From positions 62,001-126,000 of the forward strand of contig JAGRES010000009.1 of assembly GCA_020446425.1 (NCBI GenBank): a stretch of 64,000 bases of DNA. The letters run 5' to 3'. Source of the stretch: Sphingobium sp. GTDB taxonomy: Bacteria; Pseudomonadota; Alphaproteobacteria; Sphingomonadales; Sphingomonadaceae. Shown piece by piece: positions 12,274-17,050 of this stretch (position 1 is the first letter of the stretch; each line of letters begins with the position of its first letter). The notes under the pieces are model-generated. The model ran no database searches, was not told where the DNA came from, and worked only from the letters and a program-made list of their open reading frames with translations. The position numbers were made by a program, and so were the translations under genes.

Positions 12274-14127
12274 TTACGCCGCCATCAACTGTTCTTCTAT
12301 ATTTGCCTTGAGCTCTTTCAAGCGCTCATCGTTGCGGCGCTTGTAGTGGATCAGATCGAGATGTTCCTGCCACAGCGCCTCATCAATCCCTTCATCTTCG
12401 CCTCGCGCATAGAGCGCAGCGGTCAATCGTTCAAGCTTTGGCTGATATTCCTGCTCGAACAAAAGAATATTTATGACCTCGCCCAAGTCGTTTTCCGCCA
12501 CAGACCTGTCCGTATCGGCCTTGAAGAAAGAGAAGCGCAAGTCATGCGCGATGTTACGGCGTTCCGGTTCGGGTAATGAGGCGTCGGCTAATATGGCGTC
12601 GATCAGGCTTTCTTCAAGGGCCTGACGCTCAAAAGATGCGCGGATAAGCAACGACGTCCAGTCCTTGAGCGCCTGGGTCGGCATGGCGATGCCGCCAAGC
12701 TGCTCGCGATGGCTGTATAGCACGGCGGGATGGCGACACAGGCCCAGCAAAATGGCGCGCTTCATCATGCGGTCGATGCGCTGCGCCATATTGGCGAGAT
12801 CGGAGCGGATTTCCTCACGCGTCTGCTTGATGAAACCGCGAACGGCGGACCGTTCCTGTTTCTTCCAGCCGAATTCGTTCCAAAACCGATCCTTGAACGC
12901 GCGCTCATATTCGCGGCGCACAAGATCATTCTGGATCGCCTGCGCATGTTCAGCCAGACGCTGCTGCAGGCCTGCGCGCGCTTCGGGCGTGTCGACTGCG
13001 CCCGCCGCCATTTCCATGCGCCATATCTGCTCGACCAGCGGGGCGGGGGAGGCGAGGCATTCCTCAAAGCCCTTCGCGCCTTTGGCCTTGATGAGATCGT
13101 CCGGGTCCATTCCGCCGGGCAGCGTCACGAAATTGAGGCTCTGGCCCGGTTGCAACAGCGGCAGCGCGCGCAGCGCGGCGCGATTGGCGGCTTTCTGGCC
13201 TGCGCTGTCGCCGTCGAAGCAGAGGATAGGCACGTCTGCGATTTTCCACAGCCGCTCGATCTGATGTTCGGTCAGCGCAGTGCCCAGCGGCGCGACGCAT
13301 TCATGGATGCCCGCCTGCGCCAGCGCGATGACGTCCATATAGCCTTCGACGACGATGATGCGATTGGATGCGCGCGCGGCGGGCAGGGCCTTGTCGATAT
13401 TGTAGAGCGTGCGGCCCTTGTCGAACAGCGGCGTGTCGGGTGAGTTGAGATATTTGGGTTCGCCGTCACCCAATATACGCCCGCCGAAAGCGATGACCCG
13501 GCCGCGATTGTCGCGGATCGGGATCATCAACCGGCCACGGAAACGGTCATAAGGCTCGCGGCCCCTGTCCTCGGGTTTGATGACGAGGCCTGCCTCGACC
13601 AGCATGTCGGGCGGGAAATCCTTGAGCGCGGTTTTCAGCTTGCCGCGCGAATCCGGCGCGAAGCCGAAGCCGAAAGCGCGCCGCGTGGCGTCGGTAATGC
13701 CGCGCCGTTCCATATATTCCCGCGCATGCGCACCTTCCAGACCGCCAAGCTGGCTCTCGAACCAGTCCTGCGCGGCGGCCATCGCGTCATGCAGTCCGCG
13801 TGCCTGCTCGGCCTTCTTCGCCGCGCGTGGGTCGGGCGCGGGCATCTCCATCCCGGCGGCGTCCGCCAGTTCCTTGACCGCATCAATGAAGGGAAGCCCG
13901 CGATGGTCCGTCATCCATCGGATCGCGTCGCCATGCGCGCCGCAGCCGAAGCAATGGTAGAAACCCTTGTCGTCATTGATCGTGAAGCTGGGTGTCTTTT
14001 CGTTATGGAAGGGACAGCACGCCTTATATTCCTTGCCCGCGCGCTGTACCTTCACGCTCTTGCCGATCAGGGTCGACAGCGTGGTGCGGGCGCGCAATTC
14101 ATCAAGGAAGGCAGGGGAGAGGGACAT
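12274..14127 (-). CDS. dnaG: DNA primase DnaG
   Basis: DNA primase, 617 residues, making RNA primers for replication. The N-terminal zinc motif is C-P-F-H ... C-F-G-C ([12 protein letters not shown] and [11 protein letters not shown]). The catalytic core has [19 protein letters not shown], and the TOPRIM domain has [15 protein letters not shown] and [16 protein letters not shown]. The C-terminal helicase-interaction region is divergent, as expected. The open frame extends to 14202, but that part is non-conserved and overlaps a DUF559 gene; ATG 14127 starts the family sequence [15 protein letters not shown]. The only strong Shine-Dalgarno (GGGAGGGG) about 10 nt upstream is contributed by the inverted repeat of the neighbouring DUF559 element. 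Confidence 0.97.
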
Positions 14128-14131
14128 GACC

Positions 14132-14530
14132 TTATAGCCCCTCCCTTCCAAGGGAGGGGGTGGGGTGGGTGATTTTCCGACGTTCCGGCATGGAACCGGC
14201 ATGCGAGATAATCAATTCCACGATACCATCCAGATTTACCATCACATCTGCATTGCTGAACCGAACGACTCTATATCCTTTTTCTGAAAGATAGGCATCC
14301 CTTACGGCGTCCTTATTTGCCTGATGCTCATCTCCGTCGATTTCGATTACCAATCGAATATGTGGGCACAGGAAATCAACGATATACGGTGCTATCACGG
14401 CCTGTCGGCGAAATTTGAAGCCCGTCTGGGAGGCGCGGAGTTTTCCCCATAAGCGCTTTTCGGGTTCGCCGGTGTTGCTTCGTAAATCGCGCGCAAGCTC
14501 TCCTAGTTTCTCATTGATACGCTTGGCCAT
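14132..14530 (-). CDS. DUF559 / Vsr-like endonuclease domain protein (element 1)
   Basis: A 132-residue protein of the DUF559 family, which shares the very-short-patch-repair (Vsr/MTES_1575) endonuclease fold. The PD-(D/E)xK-type core is visible as FKFRRQAVIAPYIVDF (Asp) followed by VIEIDGDEHQ (Glu and Asp) and GYRVVRFSNADVM. The N-terminus (LRSNTGEPEKRLWGKLR) is the usual helix. The last residues (HPTPSLGREGL) are encoded by the left inverted repeat, and the ATG sits 2 bp inside the right repeat, so the gene fills the element. The cellular role of DUF559 proteins is not known to me; a homing or repeat-mobilising nuclease is inference. Confidence 0.85.
   Translation of the reverse strand: MAKRINEKLGELARDLRSNTGEPEKRLWGKLRASQTGFKFRRQAVIAPYIVDFLCPHIRLVIEIDGDEHQANKDAVRDAYLSEKGYRVVRFSNADVMVNLDGIVELIISHAGSMPERRKITHPTPSLGREGL
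14136..14171. repeat. left terminal inverted repeat of DUF559 element 1
   Basis: Begins with a palindrome of 10-bp arms CCCCTCCCTT / AAGGGAGGGG with the 2-nt centre CC, then GTGGGGTGGGTG. It encodes the C-terminus of the DUF559 protein on the minus strand, and its GGGAGGGG lies at Shine-Dalgarno distance from dnaG. Confidence 0.8.
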
Positions 14531-14531
14531 T

Positions 14532-14567
14532 AACCCACCCCAACCCCTCCCTTCGAAGGGAGGGGCT
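14532..14567. repeat. right terminal inverted repeat of DUF559 element 1
   Basis: The reverse complement matches the left repeat with only a few differences: the same 10-bp palindrome arms with centre CG, then TTGGGGTGGGTT. On the plus strand it is followed by TTTTT. It provides the G-rich ribosome site for the DUF559 gene. Confidence 0.8.
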
Positions 14568-14577
14568 TTTTAATGGC

Positions 14578-15030
14578 TCAGCCCAGAGCAGCCTTCACCA
14601 GCCCGCTCGCCTTGCTCATGTCGATCACGCTGCCGTGGCGTTCTTTCAGCAGCGCCATCACCTTGCCCATATCCTTGACCGATTCCGCGCCGACTTCGGC
14701 CTTGATTGCATCGATAGCCGCGCGGGTTTCGTCCTCGCTCATCTGCTGCGGCAGGAAGGTCTCGATCACATCCAGCTCGGCCTGTTCCTGCGCCGCCAGC
14801 TCGGCGCGGCCGCCCTGTTCGTACATCGCAATCGATTCGCGGCGCTGCTTCACCATTTTCTGGAGAACATCGACGACAAGCGCATCGTCATCGGGCACCT
14901 GCGAAGCGGTGCGCAGCTCGATGTCCCGGTCCTTGATCTTGGCCAGGATCAGGCGCACGGCGGCCAGGCGTTCCTTGTCGCCGCCCTTCATCGCCTCGAT
15001 TTGCGCGGATTTGATGGCGTCACGGATCAT
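14578..15030 (-). CDS. yqeY: GatB/YqeY domain protein
   Basis: A 150-residue YqeY-family protein. It is homologous to the tail domain of the GatB subunit of the amidotransferase, thought to bind tRNA. Seen: MIRDAIKSAQIEAMKGGDKERLAAVRLILAKIKDRDIE, the central ESIAMYEQGGRAELAAQEQAELDVIETFLP and the C-terminal MGKVMALLKERHGSVIDMSKASGLVKAALG, all classic for the family. It would normally adjoin dnaG-rpoD in this group; here the DUF559 element separates it from dnaG. Divergent from carA with a 173-bp shared promoter region. Confidence 0.93.
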   Translation of the reverse strand: MIRDAIKSAQIEAMKGGDKERLAAVRLILAKIKDRDIELRTASQVPDDDALVVDVLQKMVKQRRESIAMYEQGGRAELAAQEQAELDVIETFLPQQMSEDETRAAIDAIKAEVGAESVKDMGKVMALLKERHGSVIDMSKASGLVKAALG

Positions 15031-15203
15031 GACGGTGCGAATCCTCTCATTGTCGGAAAGAAAGAACCAGATATAACGGTAAAATCATTTTTTAACAGTC
15101 ATTGACCGCGCCGCAACAAGGGCATAGGGAACCGGCCGTTTAGCCTGTGTGTCCTGCGACGGATGCGCGGCGCGACCGATAAGCAAAACAAAGGATTCTG
15201 CCC

Positions 15204-16364
15204 ATGGCTACCGCCACATACCCCGCCGTGCCCAAAGGAGCGACAGGGGTATTGGTTTTAGCCGATGGCACGGTCGTGTTCGGGCGTGGTTTCGGCGCGG
15301 TCGGCGATGCCGTGGGCGAGGTGTGCTTCAACACGTCGATCACCGGCTATCAGGAGATCATGACCGACCCGAGCTACGCCGGGCAGATCATCACCTTCAC
15401 TTTTCCCCATATCGGCAATGTCGGCACCAACCCGGAGGATGTCGAGCGCGAAGCGCCGCATGCGCTGGGCTGCATCGTGCGGCAGGACGTGACCGAACCC
15501 AGCAATTTCCGCAACGCGCAGCCGTTTGACGAGTGGATGAAGGCGAACGGGCGCATTGGCCTGTCGGGCGTCGATACGCGCGCGCTCACCCGGCGCATTC
15601 GTATGGCAGGCGCGCCCAATGCCGTGATCGCGCATGATCCGGCGGGCAAGTTCGACCTGAAGGCGCTGCATGAGAAAGCACAGGCTTGGCCGGGGTTGGA
15701 GGGCATGGATCTCGCCAAGGATGTGACGGCGGCGCAGCGTTTGTGGAATGATGGCACATGGGCGCTGGGTGTTGGCTATCATCTGGAGGCCGCAAAGCCG
15801 GATGCGCCGCATGTGGTCGCGCTCGATTTCGGGGCGAAGGACAATATTTTCCGTTCGCTGGTGCAGGCCGGAGCGCGGGTGACGGTATTGCCCGCCAATG
15901 CCAGCTATGAGGATATCATGGCGCTGGAGCCCGCAGGCGTGTTCCTCTCCAACGGTCCTGGTGACCCGGCGGCGACGGGGGAATATGCCGTGCCGGTGAT
16001 CCGCAAGCTGCTCGATGCGGACATGCCGATCTTCGGGATATGTCTGGGGCACCAGATGCTGGCGCTGGCCGGTGGCGCGAAGACGATCAAGATGCATCAG
16101 GGCCACAGAGGCGCGAACCACCCGGTCAAGCATCTGGAAAAGAATGTGGTCGAGATCACCAGCATGAACCACGGTTTCGCGGTCGATGCCGCGACCTTGC
16201 CCAACAATGTGAAGGAAACGCATGTCAGCCTGTTCGATGGCTCCAACTGCGGCATCGCCTTCACCGACCGCAACGCTTTCGGCGTGCAGTACCACCCCGA
16301 AGCCTCTCCCGGCCCGCAGGACAGCTTCTACCTGTTCGAGAAATTCGTGGGAGGATTGAGGTGA
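15204..16364 (+). CDS. carA: carbamoyl-phosphate synthase small subunit
   Basis: The glutaminase subunit of carbamoyl-phosphate synthase, 386 residues, delivering ammonia to CarB for arginine and pyrimidine synthesis. The N-terminal CarA domain has DGTVVFGRGFGAVG and TSITGYQEIMTDPSYAGQI. The class I glutamine amidotransferase domain has FLSNGPGDP, the nucleophile elbow GICLGHQML (Cys), and the His/Glu pair in VQYHPEASPGP. AAAGGA lies upstream of the ATG. Its stop overlaps the start of a small DUF4177-like gene by 4 bp. In this genome carB is displaced by that gene and by DUF559 element 2. Confidence 0.97.
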   Translation: MATATYPAVPKGATGVLVLADGTVVFGRGFGAVGDAVGEVCFNTSITGYQEIMTDPSYAGQIITFTFPHIGNVGTNPEDVEREAPHALGCIVRQDVTEPSNFRNAQPFDEWMKANGRIGLSGVDTRALTRRIRMAGAPNAVIAHDPAGKFDLKALHEKAQAWPGLEGMDLAKDVTAAQRLWNDGTWALGVGYHLEAAKPDAPHVVALDFGAKDNIFRSLVQAGARVTVLPANASYEDIMALEPAGVFLSNGPGDPAATGEYAVPVIRKLLDADMPIFGICLGHQMLALAGGAKTIKMHQGHRGANHPVKHLEKNVVEITSMNHGFAVDAATLPNNVKETHVSLFDGSNCGIAFTDRNAFGVQYHPEASPGPQDSFYLFEKFVGGLR

Positions 16365-16579
16365 GCTTGTTTCGCGCGAAAAAGTGGAAATACTATAGCG
16401 TGATATGGTCGCAATATGATGGTCGTTGGAAGTGGGAAGGGCGACCTCAGCAGGAATATTCGCAACTCGAATTGTTGAAGGAGCTTGGTGAGCAAGGGTG
16501 GGAGCTTGTGACGATTGCTCCTTATGCTGATGATGGCAAAGTGGTGGCCCACGAATACATTTTTAAGAAGCAAGTCTAA
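16361..16579 (+). CDS. small DUF4177-like protein coupled to carA
   Basis: A 72-residue protein starting at a GTG that overlaps the carA stop (GTGA), so translation is coupled. The text KYYSVIWSQYDGRWKWEG followed by LLKELGEQGWELVTIAPY and a final strand HEYIFKK resembles DUF4177-type small proteins, whose role is unknown. The larger open frame from 16040 is only the carA shadow. Position inside the car locus may be historical, not functional. Confidence 0.65.
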   Translation: MSLFRAKKWKYYSVIWSQYDGRWKWEGRPQQEYSQLELLKELGEQGWELVTIAPYADDGKVVAHEYIFKKQV

Positions 16580-16616
16580 TGCCCAGAGGGACAGGTCTAT
16601 CTTTTTCGCTCTTAAA

Positions 16617-16673
16617 ACCCTCTCCCCGCGGTGGGAGAGGGTGGCGCGCGTCAGCGCGCCGGGTGAGGGGGCA
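16617..16673. repeat. left terminal inverted repeat of DUF559 element 2 (two hairpins)
   Basis: Hairpin A has arms ACCCTCTCCC / GGGAGAGGGT (loop CGCGGT). Hairpin B has arms GGCGCGC / GCGCGCC (loop GTCA). GGGTGAGGGGG follows. It contains the stop codon of the DUF559 gene. Confidence 0.8.
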
Positions 16674-16998
16674 GGTGCATCGCTATCGTAGCCAGCACGC
16701 CGTCGATATTGCCAAGAACTTCATGGTTCCAGAAGCGGATCACCTTGAAACCCTGCGTTTCGAGGAAAGCCGTGCGCGGGGAATCGGCTTCTGTGCTGTG
16801 CTGTCCGCCATCGACCTCGACAATCAACCGCGCGTCAAAGCAGATGAAATCCGCGATGTAGGGGGCGATAATAACCTGCCTTCTGAATTTAGCGCCGCCG
16901 AGTTGCCGGTTGCGCAGCTTCGACCACAGCAGCGCTTCCGCGTCGGTCGCGTTGCGCCGCAAGTCGCGCACCCGGTTTTTCATTTCGCTCGTCACCAT
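16651..16998 (-). CDS. DUF559 / Vsr-like endonuclease domain protein (element 2)
   Basis: A 115-residue DUF559 protein, paralogous to the one at 14132-14530. Shared blocks are VRDLRRNATDAEALLWSKLR, AKFRRQVIIAPYIADF (Asp), IVEVDGGQHS (Glu, Asp) and GFKVIRFWNHEVLGNIDGVL. Start ATG abuts the right repeat (GAGGGGGA just before it), and the C-terminal HLPPHPAR runs into the left repeat. Antisense to the car transcript, so it may be expressed poorly or only from the repeat. Confidence 0.85.
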   Translation of the reverse strand: MVTSEMKNRVRDLRRNATDAEALLWSKLRNRQLGGAKFRRQVIIAPYIADFICFDARLIVEVDGGQHSTEADSPRTAFLETQGFKVIRFWNHEVLGNIDGVLATIAMHLPPHPAR

Positions 16999-17050
16999 TC
17001 CCCCTCACCCGGTCGCTTCGCGACCACCCTCTCCCGCCGGGTGAGAGGGT
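16998..17050. repeat. right terminal inverted repeat of DUF559 element 2
   Basis: The reverse complement reads hairpin A (arms ACCCTCTC / GAGAGGGT), GG-flanked hairpin B with arms GGTCGC / GCGACC (loop GAA), then GGGTGAGGGGG. Hairpin B differs in sequence from that in the left repeat but keeps full pairing. Confidence 0.8.

Follow-up and report, generated by a model that had tools for sequence, protein, structure and literature searches.

Background

BoxC or triplex repeats have been noted in Escherichia coli since the 1990s. Repeats of this class, which also go by the names PIT and TM-ECO ("triplex motif"), are composed of a pyrimidine arm, a loop, a purine arm, a second loop and a purine third strand that mirrors the purine arm. 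Holder et al. (2015) counted 3610 copies in 262 proteobacterial genomes, 23 of them in K-12, and the main text of that paper describes the repeats as intergenic, with inverted pairs among them and a copy number that differs among strains (PMC4666352). The same text reports triplex formation in vitro for an E. coli oligonucleotide, not seen in vivo, reports that no mobility genes lie near the repeats and leaves their means of spread open (PMC4666352); the words "endonuclease", "ycjD" and "fabI" do not occur in it. In a second system, REP/REPIN with RAYT (TnpA-REP), a compact gene for an HUH tyrosine enzyme is located between cognate palindromes, which are also present as gene-free singles and inverted pairs. 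Here we describe two elements, A and B, in a 64,000-nucleotide stretch of Sphingobium sp. DNA (GenBank assembly GCA_020446425.1, contig JAGRES010000009.1, positions 62,001 to 126,000, recorded as G000:C3:62001-126000; hereafter "the window"), each consisting of a DUF559 (PF04480) nuclease gene enclosed by an inverted pair of G/C-rich repeats.

That these elements are discrete units, and that they are linked to BoxC-type repeats, is well supported. We infer, as the best reading of the data and with a probability of roughly 0.6, that they represent a REP/RAYT-like system in which a Vsr-fold nuclease encoded between inverted BoxC/triplex repeats spreads short copies of those repeats in trans. No paper tying DUF559, COG2852 or ycjD to such repeats was found in the open-access literature.

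Two nuclease genes enclosed by inverted repeats

A preliminary description of the window, made from its letters, had proposed two nuclease genes framed by inverted repeats, with element lengths of 432 and 434 bp and products of 132 and 115 amino acids, and the coordinates and PF04480 matches bear this out:

14132..14530, minus strand: element A DUF559 (Vsr/EDxHD-like) nuclease gene, 132 amino acids (PF04480, E 8.1e-32)
14136..14170, no strand assigned: element A repeat on the stop side of the gene, placed by complementarity to the other end and by pattern match
14533..14567, no strand assigned: element A repeat on the start side of the gene (tail 14533-14542, hairpin 14544-14565)
16651..16998, minus strand: element B DUF559 nuclease gene, 115 amino acids (PF04480, E 7.1e-40)
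16618..16672, no strand assigned: element B repeat overlapping the stop codon (hairpin 16618-16641)
16997..17050, no strand assigned: element B repeat on the start side of the gene (third strand, on the C-rich strand, 17002-17010; second hairpin 17011-17025; outer hairpin 17027-17049)

Element A spans 432 bp and its arms (14136-14170 and 14533-14567, 35 nt each) are 94% complementary; element B spans about 434 bp. In both, the start codon touches the inner edge of one repeat, and the stop codon falls just beyond the other repeat in element A and within it in element B. The two window genes are the only PF04480 matches in the whole assembly (2.73 Mb in 36 contigs), and the hairpin pattern CCCTCYC-N0-14-GRGAGGG matches it at four places, with the same pattern read backwards, our control, occurring at three. 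Chance is a poor explanation of the elements, because all four genome-wide hairpin matches are the flanks of the two DUF559 genes. A search of Rfam returned nothing up to an E value of 1 between window positions 13800 and 17400.

The repeats combine a hairpin with a mirrored third strand

The repeat of element A is composed of the arm GGGAGGGG and the tail GGGGTGGG, and that of element B of the arm GGGAGAGGG and the tail GGGTGAGGG, with an extra small hairpin separating arm from tail. On the side away from the gene, every one of the four repeats has a perfect or near-perfect hairpin; on the side facing it is a purine tail that mirrors the purine arm if T is accepted opposite A. Hence the two repeats belong to one structural class, and the idea put forward earlier, that they come from two different sequence families, was rejected, since hairpin and mirrored third strand are common to both.

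Mirror symmetry was measured on 317 flanks with a perfect purine hairpin, drawn from 404 sides of 202 loci. Of these, 270 were followed by a third strand that mirrored the arm to 88% or more, compared with a mean of 19 and a maximum of 28 over 50 rounds of shuffled tails. Where the arm was asymmetric (235 non-redundant cases), the mirrored tail fitted better in 160, both orientations fitted equally in 70, and the direct orientation was better in 5, indicating that changes in hairpin and tail go hand in hand, as expected of the base triads in an antiparallel purine triplex. A hairpin with such a mirrored tail is the purine-motif architecture of BoxC/TM-ECO, and the window repeats follow the plan of BoxC/PIT/TM-ECO repeats. 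Neither matches the strict BoxC/TM-ECO pattern CCCTCNCCC N3-6 GGGNGAGGG N3 GGGNGAGGG: the element A repeat has other stem letters, and in element B a small hairpin replaces the N3 loop. The two sets of repeats are alike in being intergenic, dispersed and sometimes arranged as inverted pairs, and copies in K-12 adjoin the DUF559 gene ycjD. They differ in that the repeats described here form the two boundaries of a nuclease gene, whereas the main text of Holder et al. reports no mobility gene near theirs (PMC4666352).

The proteins resemble Vsr and EDxHD nucleases

PF04480 scores were 109.8 bits for the element A protein and 135.7 bits for the element B protein, against a curated cut-off of 20.6. 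A model of the element B protein (mean predicted local distance difference test score 89.4) gave as its best folds 3hrl (NGO0050 of Neisseria gonorrhoeae) and I-Bth0305I, a homing endonuclease of the EDxHD family; Vsr (1cw0) ranked ninth. I-Bth0305I was also the second-best PDB profile match. It resembles the DUF559 protein in fold (template-modeling score 0.64 on the query and 0.73 on the target), whereas the DUF559 protein has a single catalytic-type domain and is encoded outside any intron or intein, between repeats. Similarity to Vsr is likewise one of fold; the NCBIfam vsr profile matched far below its cut-off (E 0.026 and 0.032; 15 bits against 97.85), and a linked cytosine methyltransferase was not established, no search aimed at it having been made. 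Five catalytic-type residues (E21, D50, D63, H67 and D72) were invariant in 24 sequences and are spaced as in the active site of Caulobacter VsrA, a protein reported to contain a DUF559 domain (PMC12907096).

Neither window protein is an HUH/Y1 tyrosine transposase; both match PF04480, and the predicted fold is Vsr-like PD-(D/E)XK. This excludes the elements from being RAYTs, and the mirrored third strand of the DUF559-linked repeat is a further difference from REP/REPIN. We also considered a defense system and rejected it, because matches to PADLOC profiles were weak throughout (DpdF, E 1.4e-5 and 0.031; mREase_II, E 0.0034).

DUF559 genes and hairpins occur together within loci and across genomes

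We compared 91 loci, comprising the window's own two and 89 from relatives (29 and 60 in list order); these loci stood at the better-scoring end of a longer list. Hairpins lay within 150 bp on both sides of the gene at 82 of the 91 and on at least one side at 90, leaving a single locus (L016) with neither. At distances above 400 bp from the genes, by comparison, 252 kb of sequence yielded just 7 hairpins. The location of the gene between cognate palindromes is therefore shared with REP/RAYT. In a phylum-wide sample of 29 loci the corresponding counts were 14 and 28, and among named genomes (79 usable loci among the best 80 of 574 matches) they were 59 and 75, with records from Nitrospirae, Omnitrophota, Elusimicrobia, deltaproteobacteria and Rickettsiales included. 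Compared as an inverted pair, the two flanks of a locus exceeded the 99th shuffle percentile at 88 of 93, 15 of 29 and 55 of 79 loci, respectively; mismatched partners gave expectations of 51, 6 and 17.

We scored a genome as enriched if it contained at least 10 hairpins and more than twice the control number. Among 99 relatives, 60 of the 65 with a DUF559 match were enriched, versus 1 of the 34 that have none. For the order's other genera the counts were 8 of 10 versus 0 of 29, the two exceptions (G065 and G073) having only weak DUF559 matches (1e-5 and 4e-5). Across 397 proteobacterial genomes, enrichment was seen in 79 of 109 with a DUF559 match at E <= 1e-10, in 3 of 35 with a weaker match and in 13 of 253 with none. 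DUF559 was present in just 2 of 50,697 phage records and 44 of 72,556 plasmid records, on which grounds we rejected the idea that it is phage or plasmid cargo. A chromosomal location is also typical of REP/REPIN and RAYT, and RAYTs are reported to be similarly rare on plasmids (PMC8049555).

Gene-free copies are dispersed in related genomes

Genomes G075 and G069 contain gene-free copies that share the hairpin-plus-tail form and lie singly or as inverted pairs tens of bases apart. Hairpins numbered up to 520 per genome, while DUF559 matches numbered at most 10 per genome among those tabulated. Dispersed gene-free copies, inverted pairs included, are thus a feature of the family that is shared with REP/RAYT, and one that the window's own genome lacks. 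In G448 and G069 the dispersed copies match, by eye, the flanks of a local DUF559 gene. Across loci the repeat follows the protein: in 64 cases the repeat of the closest protein relative in another genome is more alike than that of a paralogue in the same genome, with 2 cases the other way round. Compact gene between cognate palindromes, gene-free singles and pairs, co-occurrence in genomes and lineage-specific repeat versions together make up the resemblance to REP/REPIN and RAYT. The preliminary description had suggested this resemblance, the HUH transposase being replaced by a PD-(D/E)XK nuclease akin to Vsr, and genome enrichment, flanking across many phyla and the gene-free copies all speak for it; the G/C-rich palindromes that it mentioned as dispersed in proteobacteria can be identified with BoxC/TM repeats as described in the text of PMC4666352.

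ycjD and BoxC in E. coli

The DUF559 gene of K-12, ycjD, occupies 1408-1761 of our locus L175, where one BoxC copy lies at 1205-1242 and another, degenerate, at 1395-1424. BoxC was first described near envM/fabI. Directly upstream of ycjD lies an A/T-rich inverted repeat (L175:1757-1802). The ycjD region is at least 80% covered in 3333 of 5426 complete E. coli genomes; in two other E. coli genomes that we inspected, a TetR-efflux operon follows fabI instead of ycjD, in agreement with the arrangement given in PMC12817139.

In a spread of 60 E. coli records, from which one plasmid record was removed, the median number of BoxC places was 21 with a ycjD-side copy (n=37) versus 5.5 without (n=22), a difference that is confounded by phylogroup, and some records without a ycjD-side copy still hold 15 to 25 BoxC places. 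Strains differ at ytfQ-ytfR, yhjG-yhjE, tktB-ypfG and nrdA-nrdB: between closely similar flanks, some have BoxC where others have REP-type or different sequence. At nrdA-nrdB (L341, L348 and L349) and tktB-ypfG (L345-L347), BoxC or REP-type repeats occupy the same stretch, as if niches were shared. A clean BoxC insertion with a duplicated target was not found at the E. coli spacers inspected, and at tusA-zntA there was no BoxC-free state among the rows inspected.

Sites, unoccupied spacers and mobility

Both elements lie in spacers between host genes:

14127: start of dnaG, on one side of element A
14578..15030, minus strand: yqeY, beside element A on the other side
15204..16364, plus strand: carA, upstream of element B
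16361-16579, plus strand: 72-amino-acid DUF4177-like open reading frame (E 4.2e-6), between carA and element B
from 17070: carB, on the other side of element B

At 30 same-genus loci, the yqeY-dnaG spacer contains DUF559 in 15 and is 12 bp long in two. Of 30 carB loci, 4 have DUF559 close by and 29 have carA in range, and the carA-carB spacers of relatives range from 387 to 1410 bp. A tree of 199 proteins places the 15 carA-carB units in 10 pure clades and the 20 yqeY-dnaG units in 4, which, together with an approximately unbiased (AU) test, indicates that units arrived in the same spacers on more than one occasion, but inheritance in place is common too. An element kept at the same site by all relatives, with neither empty sites nor other copies, would be a fixed intergenic gene, as had been pointed out at the outset. 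What we observed runs counter to this: a unit present at 15 of 30 loci, two 12-bp spacers, and DUF559 genes elsewhere. The precise mobility of the whole unit that had been envisaged was not recovered, in that no event with proven boundaries or target duplication was found.

The yqeY-dnaG spacer also contains a GIY-YIG nuclease gene at seven loci (L210, L212, L213, L215, L216, L217 and L219) and a fragment of one in L204; the Pfam match (E 2.1e-16) was checked in L215 only. This gene is flanked by a different inverted repeat, CGTTCGTTTCGAGC...GTCGAGAAACG, and in L215 DUF559-type repeats still enclose it on both sides. Dispersed copies of the CGTTCGTTTCGAGC repeat occur in 37 of 100 relatives, which all belong to the same genus, and the control gave no matches; genomes without a GIY-YIG gene at this site have copies too. 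The GIY-YIG gene and its palindrome are possibly a second nuclease-plus-palindrome system.

A proposed REP/RAYT-like mechanism and its alternatives

The counts given above show that gene and repeats accompany each other in loci, in genomes and in sequence. Under the reading that we favor, each element is a single unit, composed of a single-domain Vsr/EDxHD-type nuclease gene and two inverted BoxC/triplex-motif repeats. The nuclease would recognize the repeat once a single strand, most probably that of the lagging-strand template, folds into a hairpin with its third strand, and would nick at or near the base of the folded repeat; such nicking may cause single repeats or short inverted pairs to spread in trans. 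The nuclease gene itself would mostly stay in core-gene spacers, where it would be inherited, with occasional new arrivals. The genome of the window, which has two nuclease units but lacks dispersed copies, would then represent the system in minimal form.

Several observations weigh against this mechanism. Catalysis by the nuclease and mobilization are what we infer; neither cleavage nor transposition was observed. Inverted pairs occur in both orientations, with tails inside (L312-L318), as in the window elements, or outside (L319, L332, and L181 and L340 of E. coli). In five genomes (G218, G470, G119, G407 and G421), visual comparison of part of the DUF559 loci with part of the dispersed pairs showed flanks of another version. 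The ratio of 64 to 2 by which the repeat follows the protein is also expected from plain co-inheritance of the unit with its flanks, and Mantel rank correlations between protein and repeat distances are low (0.18 and 0.17), though above permutation. The AU test is marginal, with one carA-carB clade rejected at p 0.032 (54 rows). In K-12, one of the two BoxC copies at ycjD is degenerate, and the 5' side of the gene has a different palindrome. Finally, the genome co-occurrence counts ignore shared ancestry, save for the other-genera subset (8/10 versus 0/29), and 30 of the 109 proteobacterial genomes with a clear DUF559 match are unenriched while 16 of the 288 with a weak match or none are enriched. 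The former may have other stem letters, and the latter may have lost the gene or have it hidden in assembly gaps.

Alternatively, DUF559 could be a homing-like selfish nuclease that cuts unoccupied intergenic sites, such that break repair copies in the whole unit; the repeats would protect the unit or be scars, and the scattered ones would be remnants of lost units. The EDxHD homing endonuclease I-Bth0305I ranks second both by fold and by PDB profile, the same spacers have been colonized several times, and 12-bp unoccupied yqeY-dnaG spacers exist. At the carB site of L041 (G006), moreover, the far side of the unit has a near-copy of the carB 5' region (22 of 23 nt) that none of 200 shuffles reached. 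Elsewhere this signal fades: 33 of 200 shuffles reach the window's value, on which basis we rejected target duplication by a copied carB start there, L011 is borderline (5 of 200), the other six loci range from 7 to 180 of 200, and in total the window and five other loci are non-significant at the 5% level. Remnants of lost units are also hard to reconcile with dispersed copies that, at the places inspected, are for the most part single repeats or short pairs lacking any trace of a gene, and with up to 520 hairpins against at most 10 DUF559 matches per genome tabulated. We regard homing as unlikely.

A little less likely again is host maintenance, in which the repeats are spread by slippage or by other elements and DUF559 is a repair nuclease, resolving hairpin or triplex DNA or mismatches, that settled beside its substrate. 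Caulobacter VsrA, whose spacing of the five catalytic-type residues the window proteins share, is described as SOS-linked and proposed to be a mismatch-repair nuclease (PMC12907096), and TM loci are reported to be unstable in E. coli (PMC4666352). A repair role, however, leaves unexplained why both boundaries are formed by a repeat version particular to the nuclease lineage, and why genomes contain several units.

An ordinary intergenic gene with terminator-like palindromes and accidental co-occurrence is very improbable: the repeats are able to fold as hairpins, the window's genome has no copies outside the units, and the authors of the Enterobacter 638 genome read such palindromes as terminators (PMC2869309), yet the genome co-occurrence and flank statistics oppose it, a mirrored third strand is superfluous for a terminator, and earlier work quoted in PMC4666352 found no terminator activity.

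Returning to dispersal in trans by a Vsr-fold nuclease, its broadest form, in which the BoxC/triplex repeats of bacteria owe both their origin and their continuing spread to DUF559 nucleases, with an intrastrand DNA triplex as the address label, strikes us as an even call. It may be one of several nuclease-plus-palindrome systems, because in relatives the same spacer contains a GIY-YIG gene whose own palindrome is dispersed. The linked nuclease family provides the question of how BoxC spreads with a gene, a structure model and, in ycjD, a laboratory test in K-12. If the proposal is true, then REP-like dispersal arose with an unrelated enzyme fold as well, and a DNA triplex is able to serve as a recognition signature in cells. 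Because DUF559 is a widespread family of "unknown function", annotation would change in many genomes.

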